Positions 15,497-35,027 of a stretch of 35,027 bases of DNA are shown here, in pieces (within the stretch, counting starts at the first letter, position 1; each line of letters begins with the position of its first letter). This stretch comes from Clostridia bacterium (lineage in GTDB: Bacteria; Bacillota; Clostridia; UMGS1883), in contig JAUNBL010000021.1 in NCBI GenBank assembly GCA_030527235.1, forward strand, positions 1 to 35,027, read 5' to 3'. The notes below the pieces were generated by a model. The model searched no databases. It saw only the letters and a list, made by a program, of their open reading frames with translations, and was not told where the DNA came from. Both the position numbers and the translations under genes were made by a program.

Positions 15497-16446
15497 AAAT
15501 CGTTTATTTCCTTTCCTGCAAAGTATGCCTCTATGTTTTCCGCCACCTTAATCACGCACCTTGCACGCGCTTCCTTTGACGCCCATGCTATATGAGGCGT
15601 GAGAACAATGCGGTCTTTCTTTTTCATAGTCAGAAACGGATGGTCTTTCTCCATGGGTTCTCTTTCATAAACATCTATTCCCGCGCCGTAAATTCTGCCA
15701 TCGTCTATCGCTGAGGCAAGGGCATGAGAATCCACAATCGCACCGCGCGCCACGTTTATAAGGACAGCTGTTCTTTTCATCTTCGCTATGGCCGCGCCGT
15801 CAATAATACCTTGAGTATGCTCTGTCAGCGGCGAATGCAAAGATATAATATCGCTTTGGCTTAAAAGCGTTTCCATAGTAACTTGCGCATAGTTCTCTTT
15901 TCTTTCGGCGCCTGACACACTCGCATAGGAGACCTCAGCGCCCATCGCCTCGGCAATCGCAGCAACTTTTCTCCCGATTTGACCCATGCCGATTATGCCC
16001 CAGCGTTTATTGCTTATCTCAACGTACGGGCGCCCAATATGGTTTGCAAGTCCGCTTTCGGTGTAGGCCCCGCTCTTGCAAAAGTTATCGTAATAGCTAA
16101 TTGACTCCATAAGCGAAAGAGCAAGCGCAAACGTGTGTTGTGCCACGCTTTCGCTTGAATAGCCGCGCACATTACGCACACGGATGCCGCGCGACTTGCA
16201 GTATTCAATATCCACGTTGTTATAGCCTGTGGCGCAAAGACAGATAAGCGACAGCTTTTTTGCCGCATAAAGAGTTTGTTCGTTCAAAACCTTTTTATTG
16301 GTTACGCACACATCCGCGTCCTCTAAAAGCGCAGGGATATCCTCATCGGACGCATTCGGAAAAACAACGCACTCCCCCAGAGACTCTATCGGCGCAAGAG
16401 ATGTATCTTCACCAAGAGTTTTCGCATCCAGAATCACAATCTTCAT
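15490..16446 (-). CDS. D-2-hydroxyacid dehydrogenase (NAD-dependent)
   Basis: This 318-residue enzyme of the D-isomer-specific 2-hydroxyacid dehydrogenase family has the NAD site GIIGMGQIGRKVA. Its catalytic Arg lies in NVARGAIVD, with the Glu in YEREPM and the His in LTPHIAWAS. It resembles glycerate or hydroxypyruvate dehydrogenases of the HprA group. The start at 16446 gives MKIVILDAKTLG; a longer frame adds 50 residues shadowing ricT. It begins 1 nt after ricT. Exact substrate is uncertain. Confidence 0.88.
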   Translation of the reverse strand: MKIVILDAKTLGEDTSLAPIESLGECVVFPNASDEDIPALLEDADVCVTNKKVLNEQTLYAAKKLSLICLCATGYNNVDIEYCKSRGIRVRNVRGYSSESVAQHTFALALSLMESISYYDNFCKSGAYTESGLANHIGRPYVEISNKRWGIIGMGQIGRKVAAIAEAMGAEVSYASVSGAERKENYAQVTMETLLSQSDIISLHSPLTEHTQGIIDGAAIAKMKRTAVLINVARGAIVDSHALASAIDDGRIYGAGIDVYEREPMEKDHPFLTMKKKDRIVLTPHIAWASKEARARCVIKVAENIEAYFAGKEINDLW

Positions 16447-16447
16447 A

Positions 16448-17326
16448 TCAGTCTTCAATCTTCTCCAATTCCGCAGGGTCGATTTTCTCTTCCTTCGGCT
16501 TTTTGGTGCGCGCCGCATCGTGAATGACTTTGCATTCGCTCGCCGGAAAAACTTCCAGCGCCGTCTCGTCACCGTTGTCCAGACGTACCGAAACATTACC
16601 CTTCAAGAGCGATACGTATATAACACTGCCTCTGCCTTTAGGCGTGCTGACAATAGCGCCTACGCGCGGCGTTATTTTAACAAGCTCCTCGTACGCCTCC
16701 TGCTCGTATTTCAGGCAGCACATAAGTCTGCCGCAGGAGCCGGAGATTTTGGTAGGATTAAGCGAGAGTCCCTGTTCTTTCGCCATTTTAATGCTGACCG
16801 GCTGAAATTCCTCCAAGTACTGATTACAGCAGAGGGGACGCCCGCAGATTCCCAGGCCGCCCAGCATTTTAGCCTCATCGCGCACGCCTATCTGACGCAG
16901 CTCGATGCGGGTGCGGAACACGCTTGCAAGGTCTTTTACAAGCTCTCTGAAATCCACTCTGCCGTCAGAGGTAAAGTAAAAAAGTATCTTGTTTGTATCA
17001 AAAGCGTATTCAACCTCGACGAGCCGCATCTCCAGATTGTGTTTCTTGATTTTTTCCTCACATATCTTAAATGCCTCCGCCTCTTTCTTTTTGTTCATTT
17101 CTATCTTTGCCTTGTCCGCAGGCGTGGCTATCCTTAAAATGGGGCGCAGCGGACTTACTATTGAGTCTTCTCCCACCTGTCTTTTAGGCATTGAAACAAC
17201 ACCGTATTCCACGCCGCGGGCTGTTTCCACTATAACTCCCTCGCCCACAGAAGGCTCCATATCTCCTGGGGCAAAGTAATATGTCTTGCCCATAGCTTTG
17301 AATTTGATGCCGATTACCTCAGTCAT
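16448..17326 (-). CDS. ricT: PSP1-domain protein RicT (YaaT)
   Basis: RicT (YaaT; 292 residues) is a PSP1-domain protein. In B. subtilis it is part of the RicAFT complex, which promotes mRNA processing by RNase Y and supports sporulation and competence. Two cysteine motifs, CGRPLCC and CGRLMCC, bind Fe-S in that complex. A charged KKPKEEKID tail follows. The start MTEVIGIKFK overlaps the last 8 nt of holB; a longer frame to 17359 would need a TTG start within holB. As in B. subtilis, it directly follows holB. Confidence 0.9.
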   Translation of the reverse strand: MTEVIGIKFKAMGKTYYFAPGDMEPSVGEGVIVETARGVEYGVVSMPKRQVGEDSIVSPLRPILRIATPADKAKIEMNKKKEAEAFKICEEKIKKHNLEMRLVEVEYAFDTNKILFYFTSDGRVDFRELVKDLASVFRTRIELRQIGVRDEAKMLGGLGICGRPLCCNQYLEEFQPVSIKMAKEQGLSLNPTKISGSCGRLMCCLKYEQEAYEELVKITPRVGAIVSTPKGRGSVIYVSLLKGNVSVRLDNGDETALEVFPASECKVIHDAARTKKPKEEKIDPAELEKIED

Positions 17327-18302
17327 GAATTTCCTCCCAACACTTGGTGAACATGTCAACCGTCCACAAGTCGTATTTCATTGATATATTAAGTCCTGCG
17401 CGCGTCTTAGATAAAATATCCACCGTGTTCAGTACGGCCCGCATCGTCACACAGGACGCAAACTGCGCTATTTCTTCTCTCATATCCTCGTTCACGAGCG
17501 TTTGCGAAAGCTTTGCGCGCGCGGCATCGCCAAAAAACGAAAGCGCTAAATCAAAACAGGTGTCTATATAGCCCTCTCCAGGCCGCTTACCGTTTATACC
17601 AAACACCTCTGCCGCAGCGAACACGGAGCTTTCGGACCCGGTAAGGGCAAGCAGCGCTTTGTACAGTTCTTTCCGCAGCTTAAAAAATTCACCCTCGCCG
17701 CAAAGCGCAAGCGCTTTGCCTATTACACCTCCGGAAAACCGTGCCAAAAACTCAGCCTCAGACGCATACTCCGGCACGTTTCTCTCAATATAGTCCGCAA
17801 GGGTCTTTTGCTCAAACGGCTCAAATTCCACGTGTACACACCTTGACCGTATCGTCGCAAGCAGATTACGCGCACTGTCGGCCAGCAAAATTATAACGCT
17901 TGACGCGGGCGGTTCCTCCAAAGTTTTCAGCAGCGCGTTCTGCGACTGTACCGTCAGCTTGCCTGCATTGTCTATAATGCAAACCTTTTTGTCCGCCAAA
18001 AGCGGCCTGATATAAAGCTCCGCCGTTATATCCCTGACTTCGGAAACCGAAGGCAGCGTGTCATCGTCTTCGCCCAGAATCAGCACGTCCGGATGTGTCG
18101 CGGCGGCGTGCTTTTTACACGCGTCGCACTCCCCGCAGGGCCTTTGCCCGCCCTTGCAGTGCAATGCCGCCGCGAAGCGTTTTGCCGCAGTCAGCTTGCC
18201 TATGTTGTGCGCACCGTCAAAAATATATGACTGGCGCACTCTGTTTTGGGCAATATCTTCCATAAGCGTCTTCATCGCCGTCTGCCCTGCCAAGTATTCC
18301 AT
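17319..18302 (-). CDS. holB: DNA polymerase III subunit delta prime
   Basis: HolB (327 residues) is the delta-prime subunit of the clamp loader. It has an AAA+ core with a poor P-loop (GAHNIGKLT), the zinc cluster CGECDACKK and the SRC motif of clamp loaders (IRSRCVH). The sensor region LKTLEEPP is the DNA-polymerase-III clamp-loader hallmark. The weak Walker A is normal for delta-prime. It starts 8 nt after the decarboxylase-family gene. In B. subtilis, tmk, yaaQ and yaaR lie between yaaO and holB; here they are absent. Confidence 0.92.
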   Translation of the reverse strand: MEYLAGQTAMKTLMEDIAQNRVRQSYIFDGAHNIGKLTAAKRFAAALHCKGGQRPCGECDACKKHAAATHPDVLILGEDDDTLPSVSEVRDITAELYIRPLLADKKVCIIDNAGKLTVQSQNALLKTLEEPPASSVIILLADSARNLLATIRSRCVHVEFEPFEQKTLADYIERNVPEYASEAEFLARFSGGVIGKALALCGEGEFFKLRKELYKALLALTGSESSVFAAAEVFGINGKRPGEGYIDTCFDLALSFFGDAARAKLSQTLVNEDMREEIAQFASCVTMRAVLNTVDILSKTRAGLNISMKYDLWTVDMFTKCWEEIHD

Positions 18303-18310
18303 TGAGTCAC

Positions 18311-19564
18311 CTACTCACAAATCCAAAATTCCTCCGCCATAGCTGCGGCGGATTCGTCTATAATTTCTCCGCAAAGAGCAACCGGAACTCCCGGAGGATA
18401 TGCGAACACGTCTTTTGCGCATATCCTGCCCACTGCCGCTTCCGGGCGTACCTTTTTCTTTTTTGCGAAAAACGCTTCCCGCGGCGTCACTGCGCTTTTC
18501 AAAACAGGCGGCGTCACGTCCGCAGCGGTGCAGTGAGGCAGCTGTTTTACTGCGTGTTTCAAGCGCATAAGCTCTTGCTCTGTATGCGTTGTACTCACAA
18601 TGCATACGGTTTTCCCGCAGCACTCGCACTCCGCTTCAATAGAAAATCTTTTTCGCAAATCTTCGGCCCGCGCATCCACAAGAAGCCTGAGCGGGTCTCT
18701 GTAGCGGGCATTGCCCATAGCGCGTTCTGTGCCAAACACCTCTCTGACCCTGTTTACCGCATCATCCCACATAAGACTCTCCGCCGCTTTTTCCACTGCT
18801 ACATCTAACGAGGACAAAAGCAAGTACGACGGCGATGTCGACTGATACATTGTCAGCAGATGCTCCATTCTTTCATTCTTCACGTTTGAAAGCAGGATGG
18901 CGCTTTGCGTTAAAGAGTTGAGCGTCTTATGTGCGCCCACAACGGCCGCGTCCGCTCCCAAATGCATCGGGGATGGCGGCAAGCTTTCCGCAAGCCCAAA
19001 ATGCGCGCCGTGCGCGGCATCCACCAAAAGCGCCATGCCCGCCTCGTGTGCAATTTTGGCGTACTCTGATATGTCGCCCATCATACCAAAATAGTTCGGC
19101 GCTGTGATAAAAATAGCGCGCGCGCGCGGATTTTGTACAACCGCGCGGCGCAGTGAGGCACAGTCAACTGCGCACCAAATTCCTTTTTCAACGAAAGGGC
19201 GCACCCATTTTGCGCGCGCGCCCGAGAAAACGAGCGCACTGCATAGCGAGCGATGCGAGTAGCGGTCCGCAATTATCGTGTCGCCCTCCGAACAAAACGC
19301 GCCTACCATTGCCATTACGCCGCAGGAAGAACCGTTTACCAGGTAATATGCGTTTTGCGCGCCCCAAAGTTTCGCGGCCTTTTGCTGCGATTGGGCAATT
19401 ATACCCGCAGCATTGTGCAGGTTGTCGGTGTCAAAAAGCTCCGTAACGTCCATTTTCGCTGAAATCGGGTACTCCCTTAGCGCCTTGCCGAAATTGTGTG
19501 TCGGCATATGAAACGAAAGCGCGGCGCGGGGTTTGGAAAGCCTGTCGTAAATCGGCAGCGTCAC
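18311..19564 (-). CDS. Orn/Lys/Arg decarboxylase family protein (YaaO-like)
   Basis: This 417-residue PLP-dependent protein is related to ornithine/lysine/arginine decarboxylases of the short, stand-alone clostridial type. Visible features include the substrate region HMPTHNFG, the SSCGVMA turn, DAAHGAHFG before the PLP lysine, and the lysine itself in VGAHKTLNS. The C-terminal domain ends around VFAYPPGVPVALCGE. The start is a GTG that overlaps the gatB stop, with AGAGGAG 8 nt upstream. In B. subtilis the same neighbour order, yaaO near holB, is seen. Substrate is unproven: lysine or arginine are likely. Confidence 0.87.
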   Translation of the reverse strand: MTLPIYDRLSKPRAALSFHMPTHNFGKALREYPISAKMDVTELFDTDNLHNAAGIIAQSQQKAAKLWGAQNAYYLVNGSSCGVMAMVGAFCSEGDTIIADRYSHRSLCSALVFSGARAKWVRPFVEKGIWCAVDCASLRRAVVQNPRARAIFITAPNYFGMMGDISEYAKIAHEAGMALLVDAAHGAHFGLAESLPPSPMHLGADAAVVGAHKTLNSLTQSAILLSNVKNERMEHLLTMYQSTSPSYLLLSSLDVAVEKAAESLMWDDAVNRVREVFGTERAMGNARYRDPLRLLVDARAEDLRKRFSIEAECECCGKTVCIVSTTHTEQELMRLKHAVKQLPHCTAADVTPPVLKSAVTPREAFFAKKKKVRPEAAVGRICAKDVFAYPPGVPVALCGEIIDESAAAMAEEFWICE

Positions 19565-22913: not shown

Positions 22914-25900
22914 CTAAAATACCGTTAACGCATTAAACAACGGATTCACCGTTTCAACAGTATTCCAGATAAGTATTTTAGCGCTCGTCGCGCCCTCAAT
23001 CGACACATCGGCAAAATCTACTGCCGCTGCGCCTTCGGCAATCGCCGCTGTTTTGCGTTCGAGTGAAACAAGCATGTCGCCATTGTATGCACAAAGGAAT
23101 ACTTCGGCGCTCGCCGCATCGGAGTTTTCAATTCCTATCGAAACGCTGCCGCAAAGCTCAGTTCCGGAAATTGCAAGCGTGTTTTCAGTAACGCTCACTG
23201 TAGGCTCTGCCGGCAAAACATTGTTTATAATCGCAGAAACATCGTCCGCGGAAAGTGCGCTCGTGTACATGCGGAAATCGTAAATCTTGCCTACAAGGTC
23301 CCCGTTCTCATAAGCGTAAGCGGAATCCCACCACTGCGTACGCCCGATGTAATTTCGCGTGTAGCCGGTCCCTAACTGGTATGGCACATGCGTTATCGTG
23401 ACGCCGCTTCCGACAAGCGTCTCGTTAAGGTAGATGCTCGTAACCTTTGTGGATGCATCATATGTTACCGTAACGTAAATGTCCTCGTTTGTCGGAGGAA
23501 GCGTATTGGCGCTTTCTATCTGCGTGGACGAATTCTTTATTCCCGCGCCGAACGCAGACGCGCGGCAGAACATGCTGTGCTGGTTATCGGTTCCTATGTC
23601 GTAAATACGCGGCTGTGTCGTTATGGAAGAAAGGTTAAGCTTTGTCATCACGCTGTACGAATAGATTCCCGCAAGCACGTCGCCTGTTATATTTGCATAG
23701 CCGTTCGTCTCAAAGGCTGTGGCCACATTCTGCGTAAGATCAAGAAATCCGTCCTGTACCTGGGCGCTTCCGCAAATGAGCGCGTCATTTCCCTGTCCGG
23801 AAAGGTCGCGTACATATGTCGCGCCGTTTTCAGTGTAGACATCAGCATCTTCAAACGCAAGATGAACGTACATGTCATCCTCAACACTGTTTCTCGCAAG
23901 CACTGTGACGGTGAAGTCCTTCACCTTTTCACCTATCGTCGGGAAGTTAATCGTAGCTGTAAGGTTCACCTGCGTATCGACCGCAGCGCGAGTTATAACT
24001 CCGCTTGAGGAAATTACGTCCGCATTCTCTGTCTGCCACACAATTTCGCTCCCGTCCTCGGCAGTCTCCGGAAGCGTGAGGTTGCGCATTGTCTGTGTGG
24101 GAAGCGTCAGCACTTCATAGGCGGAAGTTTCAATAATTGCATCCAAATCCGTCTGCGCGGCAATCGCCTTCACCGCATCTTGTGAAAGAGCGGAAGAATA
24201 AAGGTACGTACTTGCCATCGAACCCGATATCTCACCCATTGCCACGTCTCCGGAAGCGTTTGCTGCGGTTGTCTCAATATACTGGTCTATAAGTCCGTTT
24301 ACATATGTGCGGAGCGCGCCCTCTGCGGCATCGTAGACAATGGTATAGTTTATCCAGCCCATATTGTCCGTTCCCTTTGCGCCGCTCGTCGTGGAGCCGT
24401 AGCTTTGCATCCAGTCCGAATCCGAAAGCCGGTTTACGCTGTAGTATCTTTCCGTGCCTATCTCAACATACGGAATCACTGTCGCCAAATCGCCGTAGCC
24501 AAACGTATCTCCCGTATTGTCCGCAGTCGTCCTCTCCACTCCGAGCGATACATTGCCCGCTTTGAAAACAGTCCCGCTCGCATATGTGGAATCAAAATAC
24601 ACATAGAACGAAGCCGTAAAGCTGCCTTCGGGAACAGAAGCCTCAAGCGTCTTGCCCTCACCGGCAAAGTCGTACTTTAACGCATCGCCGAATACTCTGT
24701 CGCTACTTGTGTCGGGGTTGCTCTCCCTTGGAAGCGTGGTATTGGTCATCATGCTTGTCGGGAAGCCCATCTTGTACGTGGAGTTAACAATCCAGTAGTA
24801 GTAGTCGCCCCTCATCCATGTGAGCGCCATCTCCCCGTCTTGCCTCGCGTTTATCGTATACACGGGGCGTACGTTGTTCTTCTGCGAATTCTGCGTTATA
24901 TACTCCGTTGTCTCTACCGCGCTGTAGTCTTCGCTTAAGGTATACTTCGCTATCTCATATACCTCTCCGTAAATGCCGTCCACAGGCTCTGAGCCGTATA
25001 TCTCTCTCGGATTGGCATGGTTTATCGACATGCCTCCGCTGTAGCACTGCTCAACGCCTCTTGTCTGGTGGAAGTATTTCCCCGCATCCGCAAGATGCGT
25101 CTTTGTCCACACTCCCTCGTTATACGTTGCGCAGTAGTAATCATGCTGCTGCTTGTCGGACGAAATCCTTACCATCGCTATTACAGGCTTCGTTCCGTCA
25201 AGCGCTATATCCCATACCCAGCCGCGCTGTGACGTGGTGGAATCGTCAACCACATACGCCGTATCCGTCTCGTACCCCGTTACCGTGAACGGCGCGCTGT
25301 CAAGGCTTGCCTTCACTGCGCCGTTTATATCACGCACCGTGAGGTCGGTTATATCTATGTACGAAAAGTATATGCATGTCGGGTTTACATTGTCCGGGTG
25401 CGTTGCGCTGTACGTCATGTAAATCTTGCTCTCTCCGTCAGACGTGTATTTCGCGTACGGTCTGCAGCCTGAGCCTTGAATCGTTGACGATACTATCTGC
25501 TTGGGTCCCCAGTCAAACGTACAGTCTCCGTTTGCATCGGGCATCGTTAGACGCCCTATCGTCGGATGCCAGTTTATCCCCCTCCAGCAGAGGTAAATAT
25601 GATTCGGGTCGCTCGAAAGTATATACGGGTTGGGATATGTGGTATTATTCGCCATCGCAAGTATCTTTTCCTCTCCGAGCGTGGTTATATCTCCCGCCTT
25701 GGCGCTTACTCGGTAGAAGAAGCGCGCCTCATCTGTGTGGCGGGAATAAAATACCATTATCCTTCCGTCCGGCAGCGCGAGCCACGTCGGGCTGTTGTGG
25801 TCATCCGGCTGGAAATTAGAGCGGATTAGCACCTCGGAAACAGTGTCCGTGGTATGGTCGTACTGCGTCGCCTTAATCGCTCCGTGAACGTCTATATACC

Positions 25901-27188
25901 CTATGTATGTCGCGTCTATACCCATTTCCGTGTTCTCATAGCGCAGACTCCTTGGGTCCCCAAACCAGCATGCCGCGCCCTCTTGGGCAATTATCTCGCT
26001 TTCGGTCACAACGCTTTCCTTATATACAAGCGTAATAATATTCTCACCCTGCGTTACGTCTATCGTAAAGACAGTGTCGTCCTTCGAAAAGCCGTAATAC
26101 GTGCCTTGATGCTGCAAAATCAAATCATATGCGCCCGTATAGGTATAACTTGTAAATGCAGGAATATTTTCTATTAAAATATCTTCCGCAAGCGTTACGC
26201 CGGTATCTGAAGCCGTTTTCACGACTATTGTACGATAAGAGCTCTCTATGTACTCTATATCAAACGCCTGCTGCTCCGTTTCGGGCGTTATCGTAATTTC
26301 GCCCTGATTTCTGCGCACATAGAGTTTATCGCCGATTTCCATGGACAGCGGAGCATCGTCTTCAGAAACGCTGTACTGCTCGTTGAGCCATGTGTTTGAA
26401 AGCGCCTTTGTCCCGATAGAATCCCCTGCGCATACATAGTTGAGCGACGCGTTCGCCTCAGAGCCAAAACTAAGCTCCAGCGTAGGCTTGTAAGCCTCTG
26501 TTGTGGTGTTAAGCGAATAGAGCCACGCGCCGCCGAGAGACATCGCGTATTGGAACGTAAGCTCGCTCATGCCCGCGTCAATCATATTACGCACATACAA
26601 GAGGAGCTTGTTGCTCGAAAGGCTTATCGTCTGGTTGCTCGATGAATCCGCCGTTTGATTGCCCGCCGTAATCGCATCCGTAAGTCCGAGCAGCGGCATC
26701 TCTTCCTCCGACAAAATCGAGACGGTGCTGCTTGCGCCGAATGTCTCCTTGGTTATCGTCGTCCCCGCCCACGGCGTGCTCAGAGAATGCCCGTACACGG
26801 CAAGCCGATTGTTCGCGGTAACCTGCTTAATGGTCTTTACCGTAACCGACAGTTTTACGCTTTTTAACCCTTCCGATGTTGTTCCCGCCGGAAGCGTAAA
26901 CGCCACAACCGTGTTTCTCGCATTGCCGAAAGTCGTCCCGCTCAGCGATGGAACTGTCGTAACAGTGCCGTCGGTGTCCGTAAATGTTGTCGCGCCGCTC
27001 CAGCCCGCTTGGCAGGAGGCAACGAGCACTTCATCTGGAATCGCGGCGCTGGGCAAAATCTCATTGTTAGCGCCGAAGCTCTTTACGTCCGATGCGGTAA
27101 GCACCGTTGACGCGGCAAAAGCCGGCGCCGCCGTAAACAAAGTGGCAAGCATAGCCGCCGCTACGCATAATGACAGTATTCTTTTCAT
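22914..27188 (-). CDS. Large secreted BNR_4 polysaccharide-lyase-like protein (paralogue 1)
   Basis: This 1424-residue exported protein has a signal peptide (LFTAAPAFA end). Next comes an N-terminal beta-sandwich like a CBM96/DNRLRE module (about 27-235) and an extra region of about 80 residues missing from paralogue 2. The BNR_4 beta-propeller (about 402-801) follows, then a divergent LamG-like region with a conserved patch (about 882-944), an atrophied Ig domain, a LamG domain and a C-terminal beta domain ending in LFNALTVF. The propeller has DDHNSP and FYSRH, placing His464 and His484 20 residues apart. In PL24/PL25 ulvan lyases, as I recall, two such histidines act in catalysis. Substrate is inferred as a uronic-acid polymer. 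AAGGAGG precedes the ATG. Alternative: a non-catalytic BNR sugar-binding protein. Confidence 0.75.
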   Translation of the reverse strand: MKRILSLCVAAAMLATLFTAAPAFAASTVLTASDVKSFGANNEILPSAAIPDEVLVASCQAGWSGATTFTDTDGTVTTVPSLSGTTFGNARNTVVAFTLPAGTTSEGLKSVKLSVTVKTIKQVTANNRLAVYGHSLSTPWAGTTITKETFGASSTVSILSEEEMPLLGLTDAITAGNQTADSSSNQTISLSSNKLLLYVRNMIDAGMSELTFQYAMSLGGAWLYSLNTTTEAYKPTLELSFGSEANASLNYVCAGDSIGTKALSNTWLNEQYSVSEDDAPLSMEIGDKLYVRRNQGEITITPETEQQAFDIEYIESSYRTIVVKTASDTGVTLAEDILIENIPAFTSYTYTGAYDLILQHQGTYYGFSKDDTVFTIDVTQGENIITLVYKESVVTESEIIAQEGAACWFGDPRSLRYENTEMGIDATYIGYIDVHGAIKATQYDHTTDTVSEVLIRSNFQPDDHNSPTWLALPDGRIMVFYSRHTDEARFFYRVSAKAGDITTLGEEKILAMANNTTYPNPYILSSDPNHIYLCWRGINWHPTIGRLTMPDANGDCTFDWGPKQIVSSTIQGSGCRPYAKYTSDGESKIYMTYSATHPDNVNPTCIYFSYIDITDLTVRDINGAVKASLDSAPFTVTGYETDTAYVVDDSTTSQRGWVWDIALDGTKPVIAMVRISSDKQQHDYYCATYNEGVWTKTHLADAGKYFHQTRGVEQCYSGGMSINHANPREIYGSEPVDGIYGEVYEIAKYTLSEDYSAVETTEYITQNSQKNNVRPVYTINARQDGEMALTWMRGDYYYWIVNSTYKMGFPTSMMTNTTLPRESNPDTSSDRVFGDALKYDFAGEGKTLEASVPEGSFTASFYVYFDSTYASGTVFKAGNVSLGVERTTADNTGDTFGYGDLATVIPYVEIGTERYYSVNRLSDSDWMQSYGSTTSGAKGTDNMGWINYTIVYDAAEGALRTYVNGLIDQYIETTAANASGDVAMGEISGSMASTYLYSSALSQDAVKAIAAQTDLDAIIETSAYEVLTLPTQTMRNLTLPETAEDGSEIVWQTENADVISSSGVITRAAVDTQVNLTATINFPTIGEKVKDFTVTVLARNSVEDDMYVHLAFEDADVYTENGATYVRDLSGQGNDALICGSAQVQDGFLDLTQNVATAFETNGYANITGDVLAGIYSYSVMTKLNLSSITTQPRIYDIGTDNQHSMFCRASAFGAGIKNSSTQIESANTLPPTNEDIYVTVTYDASTKVTSIYLNETLVGSGVTITHVPYQLGTGYTRNYIGRTQWWDSAYAYENGDLVGKIYDFRMYTSALSADDVSAIINNVLPAEPTVSVTENTLAISGTELCGSVSIGIENSDAASAEVFLCAYNGDMLVSLERKTAAIAEGAAAVDFADVSIEGATSAKILIWNTVETVNPLFNALTVF
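24358..24546. repeat. Identical 189-bp block A, copy 1
   Basis: Identical by reading to 28737-28925, at the constant offset 4379. It encodes a patch of the LamG-like region, while the sequence around it differs strongly. Confidence 0.85.
24787..25985. repeat. Identical 1199-bp block B, copy 1
   Basis: No difference from 29166-30364 was found in the segments I compared, and antisense reading frames across the block translate identically in both copies. It codes for about 400 residues of the BNR_4 propeller, including the His pair. Boundaries are sharp: A/C at 24786/29165 and G/T at 25986/30365. Confidence 0.85.
26661..26804. repeat. Near-identical block C, copy 1
   Basis: Corresponds to 30803-30946 with about four differences over 144 bp, at offset 4142. 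It encodes part of the N-terminal beta-sandwich, and its neighbours are more diverged. Confidence 0.75.
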
Positions 27189-27225
27189 TGTCTTCCTCCT
27201 TGAATTTATATTTGAATTTAATTTA

Positions 27226-27254
27226 ATATTAACACTGCGATTTGCGTTTGTCAA
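27226..27254 (-). promoter_or_regulatory. SigA promoter of lyase-like paralogue 1
   Basis: On the minus strand, TTGACA and TAATAT are separated by 17 nt. The -35 overlaps the stop codon of paralogue 2, so the second gene can be transcribed on its own. No terminator was seen between the two. Confidence 0.65.
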
Positions 27255-30200
27255 TAGCTGTCTGTCACAGGATATTCCTGAGACGGGTCGATAATCACCT
27301 CATCGGAATAAACCGTCTGCGGCGTTTCATTCACGAGATACGTCACATACCCCGCCACCTTGCGCGGGCGGACAAACTCACTCAAAACAATGCCCACCAC
27401 GCCCTGCTCATTCGGGATTAGGCCGGAGTACGTCTGCTCAGGCGCGCCGGTTTCTTTCTTTATTACAAACCCAAAATCCTGCGTCAGGTAATCATAGCCC
27501 GTATCTGCGCGCATAAATACGCAATAAGTGTCAGCGTCCTTAACTACGCTCACATTGTTGACACCGTTAAACGCGGGAGCAATCGTAGGCGCTGTGGGCT
27601 GAGGCGGCAGATTATGCGCGCCCTCGTCGGCGCCGTTGACTATTAGGGCAATCCCCTCAGGCGAAAGCGCGCACGAATAGATACGGAAATCATCTATTGT
27701 TCCAATCATGTCGGAGTTATCGGAGTTGGAATCCCACCACTGCGTACGCCCGATGTAGTTTCGCGCCGAGGTCCCTATCTGATAGGGCTCGTGCGTTATT
27801 GTACTCCCGCTTCCGACAAGCGTCTCGTTAAGGTAGATGCTTGTAATCTTCGTGTCCGTATCGTAGGTTACCGTCACATACGTATCCGTTCCGGCTGTAA
27901 GCTGCGTATTCGCGTTCTCTATCAGCGTGTTTGAATTCTTTATCCCCGCTCCGAGCGCAGACGCGCGGCAAAATACACTGTGCTGCGCGTTGGAGCCAAA
28001 ATCATAAATACGCGGCATATTTGCGGTTGACGCAAGATTTACCTTTGTCACCACACTGTACGAGCGCAGCCCTTCAAGAATCGGCGTGGTAACGTTGAGA
28101 TAGCCGTTTGTGGAAAATCCTGTCGTCGTATTGGCGGTCAAATCAAGCGCTCCGTTGCTTATTACCGCGCTGCCGCATAAAAGAGCGTCGTTCCCAAGCC
28201 CCGTTTTATCAGCAACGTACGTGTTTCCGTCCTTCTCATACACATCGGCGTCCTCAAACTCATAGTGCAGATACATACTGTCCGCCGCCGTACGCTTTGC
28301 CAGCACCGCTACTTTGAAGTCTTTCGTTACGCTGCCAAGCGCGGGAAATGTCATATGCGCGCTGAGCGTAGCATAACGCGTGTTCCACTGTCTGTTTATT
28401 ATGCCGGACTCCGTTATAACATCAGCGTCCGAGGTTGTCCACGAAATTGCGGTCCCATCCTCCGCAGCGGAGGGCAGCGCAAGATTTTTTACCGTGTACT
28501 CCGGCAGCACAAGCGCATTGCAGAGCGCCTGTTCGCCTATAACCCTTATTTCGCCTTGGGAGAGAACTTTTGAATAAAGCGATACGTCCGAAACTGTGCC
28601 CGCAAACGCGCCGAGTGAGATTTCACCCGCCGCCGAAAGCGCCGCCTCGGCTTCTATATGCTGGTCAAGCAGCGAATTCACATACGTTTCGCACTCACCA
28701 GTCTGCGCATCGTACGTCAACGCATACAGTATTTCGCCCATATTGTCCGTTCCCTTTGCGCCGCTCGTCGTGGAGCCGTAGCTTTGCATCCAGTCCGAAT
28801 CCGAAAGCCGGTTTACGCTGTAGTATCTTTCCGTGCCTATCTCAACATACGGAATCACTGTCGCCAAATCGCCGTAGCCAAACGTATCTCCCGTATTGTC
28901 CGCAGTCGTCCTCTCCACTCCGAGCGTAAAGTCTCCTGCGGAAAAAATTGTGCCGCTTGCGTAAGTCTCATCTATCTTTACAGTAAACACCGCCGTAAAG
29001 CTTCCGTCTTGCATGGCAGTCCCAAGAAGCTGGACCGCATCGGTCGGCGCGTAGGAATTCGAGTCCGAGAATACCCGTACCGATTCAAAATCCGAAGCCT
29101 CTATTGCCGGCAGCGGCGTAGATGTCATTATCGACGTGGGAAATCCGAGCGGGTACGTGGAGTTCACAATCCAGTAGTAGTAGTCGCCCCTCATCCATGT
29201 GAGCGCCATCTCCCCGTCTTGCCTCGCGTTTATCGTATACACGGGGCGTACGTTGTTCTTCTGCGAATTCTGCGTTATATACTCCGTTGTCTCTACCGCG
29301 CTGTAGTCTTCGCTTAAGGTATACTTCGCTATCTCATATACCTCTCCGTAAATGCCGTCCACAGGCTCTGAGCCGTATATCTCTCTCGGATTGGCATGGT
29401 TTATCGACATGCCTCCGCTGTAGCACTGCTCAACGCCTCTTGTCTGGTGGAAGTATTTCCCCGCATCCGCAAGATGCGTCTTTGTCCACACTCCCTCGTT
29501 ATACGTTGCGCAGTAGTAATCATGCTGCTGCTTGTCGGACGAAATCCTTACCATCGCTATTACAGGCTTCGTTCCGTCAAGCGCTATATCCCATACCCAG
29601 CCGCGCTGTGACGTGGTGGAATCGTCAACCACATACGCCGTATCCGTCTCGTACCCCGTTACCGTGAACGGCGCGCTGTCAAGGCTTGCCTTCACTGCGC
29701 CGTTTATATCACGCACCGTGAGGTCGGTTATATCTATGTACGAAAAGTATATGCATGTCGGGTTTACATTGTCCGGGTGCGTTGCGCTGTACGTCATGTA
29801 AATCTTGCTCTCTCCGTCAGACGTGTATTTCGCGTACGGTCTGCAGCCTGAGCCTTGAATCGTTGACGATACTATCTGCTTGGGTCCCCAGTCAAACGTA
29901 CAGTCTCCGTTTGCATCGGGCATCGTTAGACGCCCTATCGTCGGATGCCAGTTTATCCCCCTCCAGCAGAGGTAAATATGATTCGGGTCGCTCGAAAGTA
30001 TATACGGGTTGGGATATGTGGTATTATTCGCCATCGCAAGTATCTTTTCCTCTCCGAGCGTGGTTATATCTCCCGCCTTGGCGCTTACTCGGTAGAAGAA
30101 GCGCGCCTCATCTGTGTGGCGGGAATAAAATACCATTATCCTTCCGTCCGGCAGCGCGAGCCACGTCGGGCTGTTGTGGTCATCCGGCTGGAAATTAGAG

Positions 30201-31330
30201 CGGATTAGCACCTCGGAAACAGTGTCCGTGGTATGGTCGTACTGCGTCGCCTTAATCGCTCCGTGAACGTCTATATACCCTATGTATGTCGCGTCTATAC
30301 CCATTTCCGTGTTCTCATAGCGCAGACTCCTTGGGTCCCCAAACCAGCATGCCGCGCCCTCTTGTGTCACGGTGTAGCTCTCAGGTATAGTGTATTGCGT
30401 GTATTCCACATCAAACACCTGATTCTTCTGTGTAGGAGTAATCACAATATCTCCCCCGTTTTGGCGATAATAGTATTTACCTTGCGCGCTGTAGTTTAGC
30501 GGCGCATCGGACGCAGTCAAAGTATACGCCTCGTTCAAATACACCGAAGAAAGCGCCTTTGTCCCGATAGAAACTCCCCCGCAGACATAGTTGAGCGATG
30601 CGTTCGCCTCACTGGCGTATGTAAGCGTAAGCGACGGGACGTACTCGGAAGCTGCGGAATATAAGTATGTGCCGCCGAGCGTTGTGGCAAACTGAAAGGT
30701 TATCTCCTGCGCGCCGGCGTCTATCTGACTTTTTACATATGCCGTAAGAGTCTTGGTGGAAACGGTGACGGTCTGCCCGCTTACTGCCTCCGACGTTTGG
30801 CTGCCCGCCGTAATCGCATCCGTCAGTCCGAGCAGCGGCATCTCTTCCTCCGACAAAATCGAAACGGCGCTGCTTGCGCCGAACGTCTCCTTGGTTATCG
30901 TCGTCCCCGCCCACGGCGTGCTCAGAGAATGCCCGTACACGGCAAGTCTGTTGCCGGACGTCACCTGTTTTACAGATGATACGGTAACCGCAAGCTCTGC
31001 CGCCGCAAGGTCTGTACTCACTGTCCCCTCCGGTACGCTGAACGCCACAACTGTGTTTCTCGCGTTGGCAAACGGCGACCCGCTCAGCGATGGAACCGCT
31101 GTAACTGTACCGTCGGTATCCGTAAATGTTGTCGCGCCGCTCCAGCCCGCCTGATTAGCTGCAACAAGCACTCTGTTGGGCTCTGAGGCGCTTGGCAAAA
31201 TTTCATCGTTGGCCCCGAAGCTCTTTACATCCGCAGCGCTCCACACCGTCTCCGCCGCAAACACGCCGCACGGCAAAAACGACGCCAGCATGAGCGCCGC
31301 CATTATTGCAGAAAGCAATTTTTCTCTCAT
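27251..31330 (-). CDS. Large secreted BNR_4 polysaccharide-lyase-like protein (paralogue 2)
   Basis: This 1359-residue exported protein is the tandem partner of the gene downstream. It has a signal peptide (SFLPCGVFA end), then the N-terminal beta-sandwich and the BNR_4 propeller (about 323-722, His385 and His405 in DDHNSP and FYSRH). A shared patch at about 803-865 is followed by an atrophied Ig domain (about 936-1013), LamG (about 1018-1230) and a C-terminal domain unlike that of paralogue 1 (about 1245-1359). It lacks the extra 80-residue module. The ATG at 31330 follows GGGGGG with AT spacing; a longer frame runs into the promoter. Propeller DNA matches paralogue 1 while the rest is clearly diverged. 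A role as a uronate-polysaccharide lyase is inferred. Confidence 0.75.
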   Translation of the reverse strand: MREKLLSAIMAALMLASFLPCGVFAAETVWSAADVKSFGANDEILPSASEPNRVLVAANQAGWSGATTFTDTDGTVTAVPSLSGSPFANARNTVVAFSVPEGTVSTDLAAAELAVTVSSVKQVTSGNRLAVYGHSLSTPWAGTTITKETFGASSAVSILSEEEMPLLGLTDAITAGSQTSEAVSGQTVTVSTKTLTAYVKSQIDAGAQEITFQFATTLGGTYLYSAASEYVPSLTLTYASEANASLNYVCGGVSIGTKALSSVYLNEAYTLTASDAPLNYSAQGKYYYRQNGGDIVITPTQKNQVFDVEYTQYTIPESYTVTQEGAACWFGDPRSLRYENTEMGIDATYIGYIDVHGAIKATQYDHTTDTVSEVLIRSNFQPDDHNSPTWLALPDGRIMVFYSRHTDEARFFYRVSAKAGDITTLGEEKILAMANNTTYPNPYILSSDPNHIYLCWRGINWHPTIGRLTMPDANGDCTFDWGPKQIVSSTIQGSGCRPYAKYTSDGESKIYMTYSATHPDNVNPTCIYFSYIDITDLTVRDINGAVKASLDSAPFTVTGYETDTAYVVDDSTTSQRGWVWDIALDGTKPVIAMVRISSDKQQHDYYCATYNEGVWTKTHLADAGKYFHQTRGVEQCYSGGMSINHANPREIYGSEPVDGIYGEVYEIAKYTLSEDYSAVETTEYITQNSQKNNVRPVYTINARQDGEMALTWMRGDYYYWIVNSTYPLGFPTSIMTSTPLPAIEASDFESVRVFSDSNSYAPTDAVQLLGTAMQDGSFTAVFTVKIDETYASGTIFSAGDFTLGVERTTADNTGDTFGYGDLATVIPYVEIGTERYYSVNRLSDSDWMQSYGSTTSGAKGTDNMGEILYALTYDAQTGECETYVNSLLDQHIEAEAALSAAGEISLGAFAGTVSDVSLYSKVLSQGEIRVIGEQALCNALVLPEYTVKNLALPSAAEDGTAISWTTSDADVITESGIINRQWNTRYATLSAHMTFPALGSVTKDFKVAVLAKRTAADSMYLHYEFEDADVYEKDGNTYVADKTGLGNDALLCGSAVISNGALDLTANTTTGFSTNGYLNVTTPILEGLRSYSVVTKVNLASTANMPRIYDFGSNAQHSVFCRASALGAGIKNSNTLIENANTQLTAGTDTYVTVTYDTDTKITSIYLNETLVGSGSTITHEPYQIGTSARNYIGRTQWWDSNSDNSDMIGTIDDFRIYSCALSPEGIALIVNGADEGAHNLPPQPTAPTIAPAFNGVNNVSVVKDADTYCVFMRADTGYDYLTQDFGFVIKKETGAPEQTYSGLIPNEQGVVGIVLSEFVRPRKVAGYVTYLVNETPQTVYSDEVIIDPSQEYPVTDSY
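28737..28925. repeat. Identical 189-bp block A, copy 2
   Basis: Partner of 24358-24546. It ends at CTCCGAGCG, after which the two genes differ immediately. Confidence 0.85.
29166..30364. repeat. Identical 1199-bp block B, copy 2
   Basis: Partner of 24787-25985, coding for the propeller of paralogue 2 in the same frame. Confidence 0.85.
30803..30946. repeat. Near-identical block C, copy 2
   Basis: Partner of 26661-26804, with about four base changes, mostly at third codon positions. Confidence 0.75.
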
Positions 31331-31355
31331 CTTTATCCCCCCTGAATATAAGCTT

Positions 31356-31384
31356 AGTTTAACATACGCGGCCGCTGCGGTCAA
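31356..31384 (-). promoter_or_regulatory. SigA-like promoter of lyase-like paralogue 2
   Basis: On the minus strand, TTGACC and TAAACT are separated by 17 nt, 25 nt before the ATG. It faces away from the promoter at 31479, so the 230-nt gap is a divergent regulatory region. Confidence 0.5.
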
Positions 31385-31478
31385 CACCTTTAATTTCATT
31401 TTTTTTGTACAAATGTTGTGGTAAATATAGTAAGGCTGCGTTTCTTCGGCGGACGGACAATTTTTTTACATGAAAGTA

Positions 31479-31560: not shown

Positions 31561-34500
31561 ATGAAGAGAACATTCAGAGAATTTCTCGTGCTTGTGACCG
31601 TTTTTGCCATGGTAGCTTCACTGCTGCCGGTGGGAACGCTCAGCGCGGGAGCAACCAGCGCAAACATATCGCCCGCAGCGCTCGGGCAGTATTTCATGCG
31701 CTACAACATGTCAAATTCCACACGCCTTATTGACATGTATATGCTTGGCGCACACGATGCGTTCACCTCCGGGCTTAACAGCAGCTCCGCAGTAGATTCA
31801 GCGGGTGTTAAGCTTGGCGACATCGGCGCTACGGCGGCGCGTCTGATTTGGACAAGCTCTATCATCAATCGGAGCCGCGCGCAGGATTCTAACACTACGG
31901 AAATGCTTAATTCAGGTGTCAGATATTTTGATGCGCGCCTTTCCCGCAGCACGGAGGGCGGCGAGTGGTGGACAACACATGGGCGTTTGTCGGACCAGTT
32001 CTCCGGCGATGGCGGAATAGCGCAGACACTTGCCGCATGGCTTGCCGCAAACCCGGGCGAAATTGTAGTGCTTGACATTCAGAGCGTGTTTGACATTGAA
32101 ACTGACGATGGTTCAGCCACCACAACATCGTGGGGCGACATTGCAGCCGCGCTTGACTCGGCCGGACTTTTAAGCTATGTCTATACGCGCAACGGTTCTG
32201 TTTCCTCGCATACATACGGCTCGCTTACCAATAACGGAACGCGCGCGGCGTGCGTGCTTTTTGGACAGGCGACAGGTTCTTGGACCTCTTATAACGGCGA
32301 ATACTACTTCATTAACCGCCGTGACAGCGATGGTTACGTGCGCTCGCTTTGGACGGAAGAGTCCTCTCTTGCCGACGTAAAAACGGCTCTGGCAGCAGAA
32401 GCGACCACGGCTGACAGTTCATCATATAATTGGAAGCTTCGCGTTATGCAGGCGCAGACAACCGGCAGTAATCTGGTGAGCGATGCTAACACGAATAACT
32501 ACAGTATCTTGACAGACGCAAACTTTGAAGCTTGGAACAGCGTTCTCCGCGTTTTCCAGGTTGACAACGCTACAAGCGACACAAATAATTTTAACTCTCT
32601 TGCGCTTAACGCGCTTGCCGAGAAAAACCGACCCGACACTATTGTCCAGAACTCTAACGATGTTTCCTTCTCGGCGCCCAAGGCAAACATTCCTTTTTCT
32701 TCACACTTTGAAGCATCGTCTTCCGACCCGGATGCCTCTACTTACAGCAACCTTACAAGCGTTAACTCCACAAACGTTCTTGCGGTCAGAAAAGTGTTCG
32801 ACATTTCGCTGATTCAAGGTGCATCGACAGCCGTTTCTCCCACAGGAAGTGTTACGATTGCCCTTCCTACCGATGCTGTGGCGAGCGACAAGGCGGCAGC
32901 TGTGGTTAAGTATGATAACGGCAGTTATACCGAATTGGCAGCGACAGAGTCCCTGACCTCCGTTTCGTTTTCAACGGCTTCCGTCGGCACATATCTGCTC
33001 GTAGAGCTTGACGCTGAAAAGCCGGACGGCGCAAAGCGCGCCGCTGCCGTTCCCTCAACCCTCGATGTGAGTGTGGACGACATGGCGCAAAACGCCACAC
33101 TGGAATTTGATGGCAGCTATGCAAATGTAGGTTCCGTCGCCAATGACACACCGGTAGCATCCGCACCCGTGTGGTCTGACAGCTGGGTAACTACAGCCAC
33201 TGCAAATATCAATCTCATCAACGATGGTACCGTAAGCTGTCTGCAGGTATACGGAAACAGCGGGTATGCTGAGCTTAGCAGCGTAGCCAGCGGCGGCTTC
33301 GCTTCCGGAAAGGGCTACTACTATCTGCAGTTTAGAGCAACGCGCTCCTCCAATCAATGGCATGATATCGCGCTTATGGACGCTACCGGGAATTACTTTG
33401 CCACTTTCTGTTTTGCAAATGACGGGCTTTTCCCCGATGACGCAAAGCGCAGCTTTAACAACACACCGTCGGCGCTGACCGAGGTAGGCGATTTGAGCGC
33501 TTCTACAGATGGCTTGTGGTACAGAATTTATGTCAGAAATGTTATAGATTCCGACACGCAGGCAGAATACTACGTTGTCTCCTTTGCGACCTCCTCCACT
33601 GCCGACGGAACATACGCCGTGTATAACACTCTCACATATCAGGGAAGCGTTAACGGCTTTGGCGGCTTCTACGACAAAATCGGCGGCGCCGACCCGTGGT
33701 GGAACAACATTCGTTTCGGAGACTTTCAGATTTATTCCGGCGATTTTGACGCTTATGCCCCGATTACGGTGAATCTCACCTGTGACGGCACAACGTTTGC
33801 AACATCAGAAGCGTACGCATTTATAGGCGCAACATACGCCTACTCCCCAGAGCAGACTTATTATAACGAATCAACCGGCAATTACTATAAGCTGCTCAGC
33901 GCGCCGGAGGCAATTGTTGTTGCTGACAGCGGCAACAGCATTGCTGTAGAGTACTTAAAGCTGGGCGCGTTTGACTTAACGCAAAACCTTATTACTAACG
34001 GAGGCTTTGAAGACGGCGCTGCAAACTTTACAACCTCAGATTTCTCCACTGCCATTACAGATGGCAGCAACGGCTTTGCAATTAGCACCGACGTTTATCG
34101 CTCGGGCGCACAGTCGCTTTACCAAGGCACCGGAACTTATAGTTCCTCTGCAGGTTCGCTTTCAACAAAGTGGGCTGTTACTCCCGGCAAAACTTATGTC
34201 TTTACGTTTTACGCGTACGCGGCAGCGAACGCCTCGTATTCCAACGCATACGTGCAGCTGCTGCCTTCTTCGGGAACTACCGCCAACAGTACTATTCTAA
34301 ACCCGATTGTAGCATCTACACTGTGGTATAAGAACAGCGTTGTTTTCACCGCAGGTGACGCCGATGCGTATGTGGGAGTAAAGGTCGGCTGGGCGAGCGG
34401 AGTATATTATGATGACTTCTCGCTTTATGAGTATTCTCCCGATACGACAAGCGCAACAATAAAATATATCTCCACGGAAACGGGCGACTACCTTGTAGGT

Positions 34501-35027
34501 ACGCCGACAGTTGAGCTTGCAGGCTTTGTATCCGGTGCGGCAGGCAGCGTGGACGGACTTATCGTAGGCGAATCTTACACATATTCCTCCACCTCCCCCA
34601 TCGTTTTGGAGCATAACAACGTAAGCTCCACATACATTTATGATTCTTCTGTGGTACAGATTACCTCTATAGACACTCTCATGCCCGATGCAGCGCAAAA
34701 CAACATCGTGCTTTACTACCGTGAGGCGGCAATTATTGCGGCGGAGTATAACGGCGCATCCTGCACAACGCGTGTCGGCATCGCTCCCACGCTTCCGACT
34801 GTAGGCGCGGCGAACATCTGGCTTGAAGGCAGCGACACGACCGGAGAGCCTGATGGCACAGCAGACGTAATTTGGGGTGCAGTAGACGTTACAACGACCG
34901 GTCAGAAGTTAGTCACGGGAACGGTGCTCGGCTACAGCGGCACCGTGACGGCAACAGTGACTGTTGTGGCTCTGGATTCGTTCCTGCTTGTGGAATACGA
35001 CTTTGATGACGAGACGCTTGCCGATAC
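31561..35027 (+). CDS. Large secreted PI-PLC-like multidomain protein (3' partial)
   Basis: This open frame has at least 1155 codons and runs off the window. Residues 1-30 form a signal peptide (ending in LSA). Residues about 50-400 form a PI-PLC X-type TIM barrel: His65-Asp66 in LGAHDAF, Asp124 and Arg126 in GVRYFDARL, and His140 in TTHGR correspond to the bacterial PI-PLC catalytic His32, Asp33, Asp67, Arg69 and His82. A LamG-like beta-sandwich follows (about 505-735), then a CBM4/9-like module around residue 808 onward (LITNGGFEDG). A region ending NNIVLYYREA precedes an atrophied Ig part and the start of a LamG unit (LVEYDFDDETL), as in the two lyase-like paralogues. It is likely to cleave phosphatidylinositol or a GPI-type anchor outside the cell; a glycan-specific role is inferred. 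Confidence 0.82.
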   Translation, partial: MKRTFREFLVLVTVFAMVASLLPVGTLSAGATSANISPAALGQYFMRYNMSNSTRLIDMYMLGAHDAFTSGLNSSSAVDSAGVKLGDIGATAARLIWTSSIINRSRAQDSNTTEMLNSGVRYFDARLSRSTEGGEWWTTHGRLSDQFSGDGGIAQTLAAWLAANPGEIVVLDIQSVFDIETDDGSATTTSWGDIAAALDSAGLLSYVYTRNGSVSSHTYGSLTNNGTRAACVLFGQATGSWTSYNGEYYFINRRDSDGYVRSLWTEESSLADVKTALAAEATTADSSSYNWKLRVMQAQTTGSNLVSDANTNNYSILTDANFEAWNSVLRVFQVDNATSDTNNFNSLALNALAEKNRPDTIVQNSNDVSFSAPKANIPFSSHFEASSSDPDASTYSNLTSVNSTNVLAVRKVFDISLIQGASTAVSPTGSVTIALPTDAVASDKAAAVVKYDNGSYTELAATESLTSVSFSTASVGTYLLVELDAEKPDGAKRAAAVPSTLDVSVDDMAQNATLEFDGSYANVGSVANDTPVASAPVWSDSWVTTATANINLINDGTVSCLQVYGNSGYAELSSVASGGFASGKGYYYLQFRATRSSNQWHDIALMDATGNYFATFCFANDGLFPDDAKRSFNNTPSALTEVGDLSASTDGLWYRIYVRNVIDSDTQAEYYVVSFATSSTADGTYAVYNTLTYQGSVNGFGGFYDKIGGADPWWNNIRFGDFQIYSGDFDAYAPITVNLTCDGTTFATSEAYAFIGATYAYSPEQTYYNESTGNYYKLLSAPEAIVVADSGNSIAVEYLKLGAFDLTQNLITNGGFEDGAANFTTSDFSTAITDGSNGFAISTDVYRSGAQSLYQGTGTYSSSAGSLSTKWAVTPGKTYVFTFYAYAAANASYSNAYVQLLPSSGTTANSTILNPIVASTLWYKNSVVFTAGDADAYVGVKVGWASGVYYDDFSLYEYSPDTTSATIKYISTETGDYLVGTPTVELAGFVSGAAGSVDGLIVGESYTYSSTSPIVLEHNNVSSTYIYDSSVVQITSIDTLMPDAAQNNIVLYYREAAIIAAEYNGASCTTRVGIAPTLPTVGAANIWLEGSDTTGEPDGTADVIWGAVDVTTTGQKLVTGTVLGYSGTVTATVTVVALDSFLLVEYDFDDETLAD

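Follow-up and report, generated by a model that had tools for sequence, protein, structure and literature searches.

Interlocus (ectopic) gene conversion, or concerted evolution, is known among bacterial paralogues, where copies within the same genome may present tracts far more similar to each other than the remainder of the genes (e.g., Wang and Chen, 2018, PMC6053082). Seven-bladed β-propellers of the Pfam family BNR_4 (PF15892) are described in the polysaccharide lyase families PL24 (LOR_107), PL25 (PLSV_3936) and PL42, the former GH145 (FoRham1, BT3686). Both subjects are relevant to the stretch of DNA analyzed here (the window, 35,027 nucleotides), which is one whole contig (JAUNBL010000021.1, G000:C75) of a Clostridia metagenome-assembled genome (MAG) of 100 contigs, 2.09 Mb in total and 82% completeness. 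The window harbors two tandem genes, named A and B, that encode large secreted proteins with a BNR_4 propeller and share stretches of near-identical DNA within otherwise strongly diverged sequences. Recent and patchy ectopic gene conversion between these neighboring paralogues is in our opinion the best explanation, and one we hold with good confidence from the comparison of sequences.

The two genes, both on the minus strand, were compared base by base. The converted tract in the β-propeller domain, block B, is an exact match of 1199 nucleotides between positions 24787–25985 in gene A (amino acids 424–822) and 29166–30364 in gene B (amino acids 346–744); it coincides exactly with the domain and has two full-length copies in the genome and no others. 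Block A, located in a module following the propeller (amino acids 903–966 of A; positions 24357–24547 in A and 28736–28926 in B), is an exact match of 191 nucleotides with the same offset of 4379 as block B. Block C, in the N-terminal module (amino acids 151–198 of A; about 26660–26804 in A and about 30802–30946 in B), presents 4 differences in 144 nucleotides (2.8%, i.e., 97% identity) and, given these differences, is an older or incompletely homogenized tract. A sequence-only reading of this DNA had already delimited block B with the same coordinates, noticed about 3% of differences in block C and diverged sequence directly outside block B, and given 189 bp for a block A at the common offset, all of which agrees with our measures apart from the two additional bases.

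Outside the blocks, identity over 690 aligned codons is only 55.5% for amino acids and 60.1% for nucleotides, the longest exact run reaches 35 nucleotides, and fourfold degenerate sites are identical in 84 of 202 cases (42%). Inside, all fourfold sites are identical in block B (175/175) and block A (32/32), hence 207/207 for both, as are 26 of 29 in block C. The 239-bp spacer separating blocks A and B (24548–24786 in gene A, amino acids 823–903; 28927–29165 in gene B) belongs to the most diverged portions of the pair, with 5 of 22 identical fourfold sites, and identity falls at once to the level of the flanks at the tract edges, as expected from interlocus gene conversion. When codon columns were permuted 2000 times, no identical run longer than 72 nucleotides arose, compared to the 1199 observed. 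The identity of these tracts is far beyond chance or protein-level constraint.

Strong selection alone, keeping the propeller and two patches identical with no recombination, might be evoked since conservation within the family is highest in the propeller, with a mean pairwise identity of 0.61 across fifteen homologues. The same measure amounts to a mere 0.37 for blocks A and C, close to the 0.35–0.40 of neighboring positions, and amino acid identity of the propeller among relatives ranges from 54 to 67%. Together with the contrast at fourfold sites, this makes selection without recombination extremely improbable; purifying selection as sole cause is ruled out by the synonymous sites.

The phylogeny of the flanks also argues for gene conversion. 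When the N-terminal and C-terminal flanks, freed of the blocks, were each used for a tree, A and B came out as sisters with supports of 100/100; since both trees pair A with B, the genes are old, lineage-specific tandem duplicates, with synonymous sites that seem near-saturated outside the blocks. The path between A and B measures 0.54 and 0.80 substitutions per site in the two flanks and 0 in the propeller. The corresponding distances from A to the nearest relative with the same architecture, the outgroup G009:C138, are 1.79 and 1.52 for the flanks and 0.76 for the propeller. According to our own rough estimate from these tree distances, A and B would be expected without recombination to lie about 0.23–0.40 apart in the propeller, i.e., to show some 80–130 amino acid differences, and none is observed. 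In the tract as well as in the flanks, A and B are nearer to each other than to orthologues. The previous proposal of recent conversion between tandem paralogues is thus well supported by fourfold sites and flank trees. The idea that one active site is displayed on different targeting modules is not supported, as the modules that flank the propeller in A and in B are mutual closest relatives. They are diverged copies of the same modules, with the exception of an insert of about 78 amino acids in A and of unrelated C-terminal tails.

The mosaic itself, the sisterhood of A and B in every flank and the identity in excess of constraint are direct observations, from which the following scenario may be proposed. 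In this lineage, a gene for a secreted BNR_4 β-propeller protein would have undergone tandem duplication, followed by divergence of the copies to near-saturation at synonymous sites. The neighboring copies would then have recombined, with no fewer than three stretches of one copy being overwritten from the other, through an exchange that we infer to be non-reciprocal, of the RecA type and initiated in a similarity-dependent manner. Slower protein evolution of the propeller could have kept the copies similar enough to pair over the tract of about 1.2 kb, which would end where homology drops, at the 78-amino acid insert of A upstream and at a fast-evolving module downstream. Similarity-dependent pairing plausibly accounts for block B, and blocks A and C resemble shorter tracts at positions without special features. 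The suggestion that exchange is focused on the propeller is therefore only partly retained: the longest tract matches the propeller exactly, but two more lie in accessory modules, at positions of ordinary conservation.

The exactness of the match has to be considered in light of the assembly. The window contig begins with 55 bases that are found unchanged at the ends of C5, C8, and C11 of the same genome, and a dispersed element of 51–59 bp is present at many contig ends (C2, C5, C8, C11, C50, C57, and others). This element is both a short interspersed repeat that breaks the assembly and an assembly k-mer signature. Exact overlaps of 55 bp between contigs are the product of de Bruijn assemblers with a final k of 55, such as metaSPAdes, pointing to a metaSPAdes-like short-read assembly with this k-mer size. 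Because metagenome fragments are shorter than 1 kb, an exact repeat of 1199 bp should break the contig. metaSPAdes, however, first collapses variant bulges and then leads the "strain contigs" obtained before this collapse through the consensus graph (PMC8021871). It is plausible that the perfect identity stems from a consensus edge used twice and that the copies differ at some sites.

Assembly collapse, by which two similar propeller segments were merged into one graph edge walked twice, had been named by the sequence-only reading as the main technical alternative. As regards exactness, this caution was justified by the 55-bp overlaps of contig ends, by fragments too short to span 1199 bp and by a threading procedure able to yield a twice-used consensus segment; in addition, no other internal repeat at ≥97% identity is longer than 215 bp in the sample of about 410 kb of readable sequence on which the repeat content of the 2.09-Mb genome was judged. 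As an explanation of the whole mosaic, collapse is nevertheless improbable and could not create it by itself, because bulges collapse only between shared k-mers and copies as diverged as the flanks, with no run above 35 nucleotides, share no 55-mer. Moreover, each copy needs its own way into and out of the 1199-bp edge, the copies of block B are physically linked by a unique stretch of 2.75 kb that fixes their tandem order, and the reading frames are intact. A mixed case, in which a real conversion took place and differences of up to a few percent were erased by the assembler, is a refinement of gene conversion and compatible with it. We consider this version a serious one, with somewhat less than even chances: the passage of one contig across an exact repeat of this length is more readily understood if the graph before consensus still contained two differing copies, and block C retains its 2.8% of differences. 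In reality the copies are near-identical; their perfect match is that of a short-read consensus and as such unproven.

Several points weigh against gene conversion as presented above. In a comparison that included a single genome of this genus, no close relative with an orthologous A/B pair was found, the best propeller match beyond A and B being 67% identical in amino acids. In a short-read assembly with k = 55, neither exact identity nor the uninterrupted run of one contig across a 1199-bp repeat can be taken at face value (PMC8021871). Finally, the location of blocks A and C is not explained by similarity-dependent pairing alone.

The relatives considered were the best 80 of 436 matches in an alignment-based scan of genome contigs, none of which exhibits a near-identical locus. 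The named ones are Clostridia MAGs, several of which come from gut samples of roe deer, goat, and rabbit ("Lapin" being taken as rabbit). A single-protein scan of genome contigs returned no relatives, and none were detected in the viral contigs scanned. Two genomes of genus g4, G010 and G012, share an orthologous tandem BNR_4 pair with neighbors in common. The G010 pair is split over two contigs (C82 and C88), the end of one (L067 8599–8873) and the start of the other (L066 1–275) overlapping at 98% inside the first gene, where the assembly breaks. The G012 pair, 75–81% identical, is the only other tandem pair among 109 family loci (L056 and L111 being the same contig), and no other near-identical tandem island was observed among them. 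Its second gene, G012_C26_9212 (L056 9212–13192, contig C26), encodes a propeller with ends of 0.93 and 0.92 identity to the G010 orthologue, whereas its middle (aligned positions 624–663) shows 0.23 identity to this orthologue and 0.62 to a short propeller class of G012:C7. Grouping of the G012 and G010 orthologues was rejected for the second half of the propeller by the approximately unbiased test (p = 0.018), a value only suggestive since the pair was chosen after the tree was seen, and not for the first half (p = 0.37). G000 is thus probably not the only genome with propeller recombination. More speculatively, and with a rather small chance of being correct, the tandem BNR_4 genes of this gut Clostridia family might form a recombination system in which the propeller is repeatedly homogenized (G000) or partly swapped (G012) as accessory modules diverge; if true, catalytic core and accessory modules would evolve as separate units.

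The G012 mosaic, involving a different propeller class, also lends some credit to the possibility that A and B each acquired one and the same propeller in separate events from a third source, by transfer or from another paralogue. Each gene would then have to have taken up three corresponding insertions at a common offset, no further full copy is present in the assembly, and GC content at third codon positions of blocks A and B (0.64–0.67) is near the gene average (0.59). We hence regard a third source as quite unlikely compared to direct conversion between A and B.

Genes A and B are arranged head to tail, gene B being upstream of gene A. Gene A (22914–27254, minus strand) is an open reading frame (ORF) of 1446 amino acids with BNR_4 (E = 2.9e-41), aBig_2, and Laminin_G_3 domains, and gene B (27251–31399, minus strand) one of 1382 amino acids with BNR_4 (E = 1.4e-41), Laminin_G_3, and aBig_2 in the same Pfam order. 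The BNR_4 scores of 142–143 bits largely exceed the gathering cut-off of 27.3, and a search of NCBIfam gave no match. The real start of gene A is likely the ATG at 27188 behind AGGAGG, giving about 1424 amino acids, and that of gene B likely the ATG at 31330 behind GGGGG. Both candidates are preceded by a sequence resembling a ribosome-binding site and followed by a stretch resembling a signal peptide; about 62 bp separate the stop of gene B from the likely ATG of gene A. According to the pairwise protein alignment, the segment of about 78 amino acids found only in A lies just upstream of block B in reading direction (approximately 26010–26243, minus strand). Proteins of about 2700–2800 amino acids that contain the same propeller were observed at L049 3925–11958, L054 2318–10354, and L057 6948–15326, and several repeats of the L054 protein resemble the segment unique to A.

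In the window, no tRNA or Rfam element able to promote recombination was found. The contig end truncates a large, divergently oriented ORF containing CBM_4_9 (31561–35027). This ORF is 80% identical to G000:C85 over its last 250 bp and 95% identical to the start region of C72 over its last 86 bp, which suggests another repetitive family of secreted proteins. In contig G000:C8 (L213), two Rhs/YD-type C-terminal cassettes (16338–17009 and 17678–18415) share a core of 215 bp that is 98% identical, around 'GIGRFRSVDPARDGLNWYVYC.NPIRWIDPTGLK', with divergence beyond, a pattern typical of tandem Rhs tips.

The propeller itself was modeled by AlphaFold2 with a mean pLDDT of 88.9 and exhibits the β-propeller fold of PL24, PL25, and PL42 lyases. 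The top Foldseek matches are GH145/PL42 and PL24 propellers (E = 1.6e-10 to 5muk and 2.3e-7 to LOR107), with template modeling (TM) scores of 0.55–0.63, and a sequence search of solved structures in the PDB retrieved no significant relative. Two invariant histidines, H63 and H83 of the propeller, are 20 residues apart, and the likewise invariant Tyr117 and Arg135 are candidates for the Tyr/Arg neutralizer of these lyases. A and B likely play a secreted polysaccharide lyase-like role.

Compared to the described lyases, with which they have the BNR_4 match in common, the propellers of A and B present the same histidine spacing as FoRham1 (H85/H105) and PLSV_3936 (H123/H143), whereas the spacing is 21 in LOR_107 (H146/H167). 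Identity to these propellers is only 11–15%, at the TM scores given above, and, unlike them, the propeller of A and B is embedded in Clostridia proteins of about 1400 amino acids with aBig_2 and LamG modules. Regarding recombination, the process is known and ordinary, and the locus is a well-shaped and instructive example: a clear three-tract case of patchy conversion between near-saturated tandem paralogues. Gene trees of multidomain secreted proteins need to be built module by module, and metagenome assembly with k = 55 can turn "near-identical" into "identical," a trap when dating recent conversions in MAGs. Like the bacterial paralogues known to undergo interlocus conversion, A and B reside in the same genome and carry tracts far more similar than their surroundings; here, just parts of large multidomain secreted proteins were homogenized, the rest being near-saturated.
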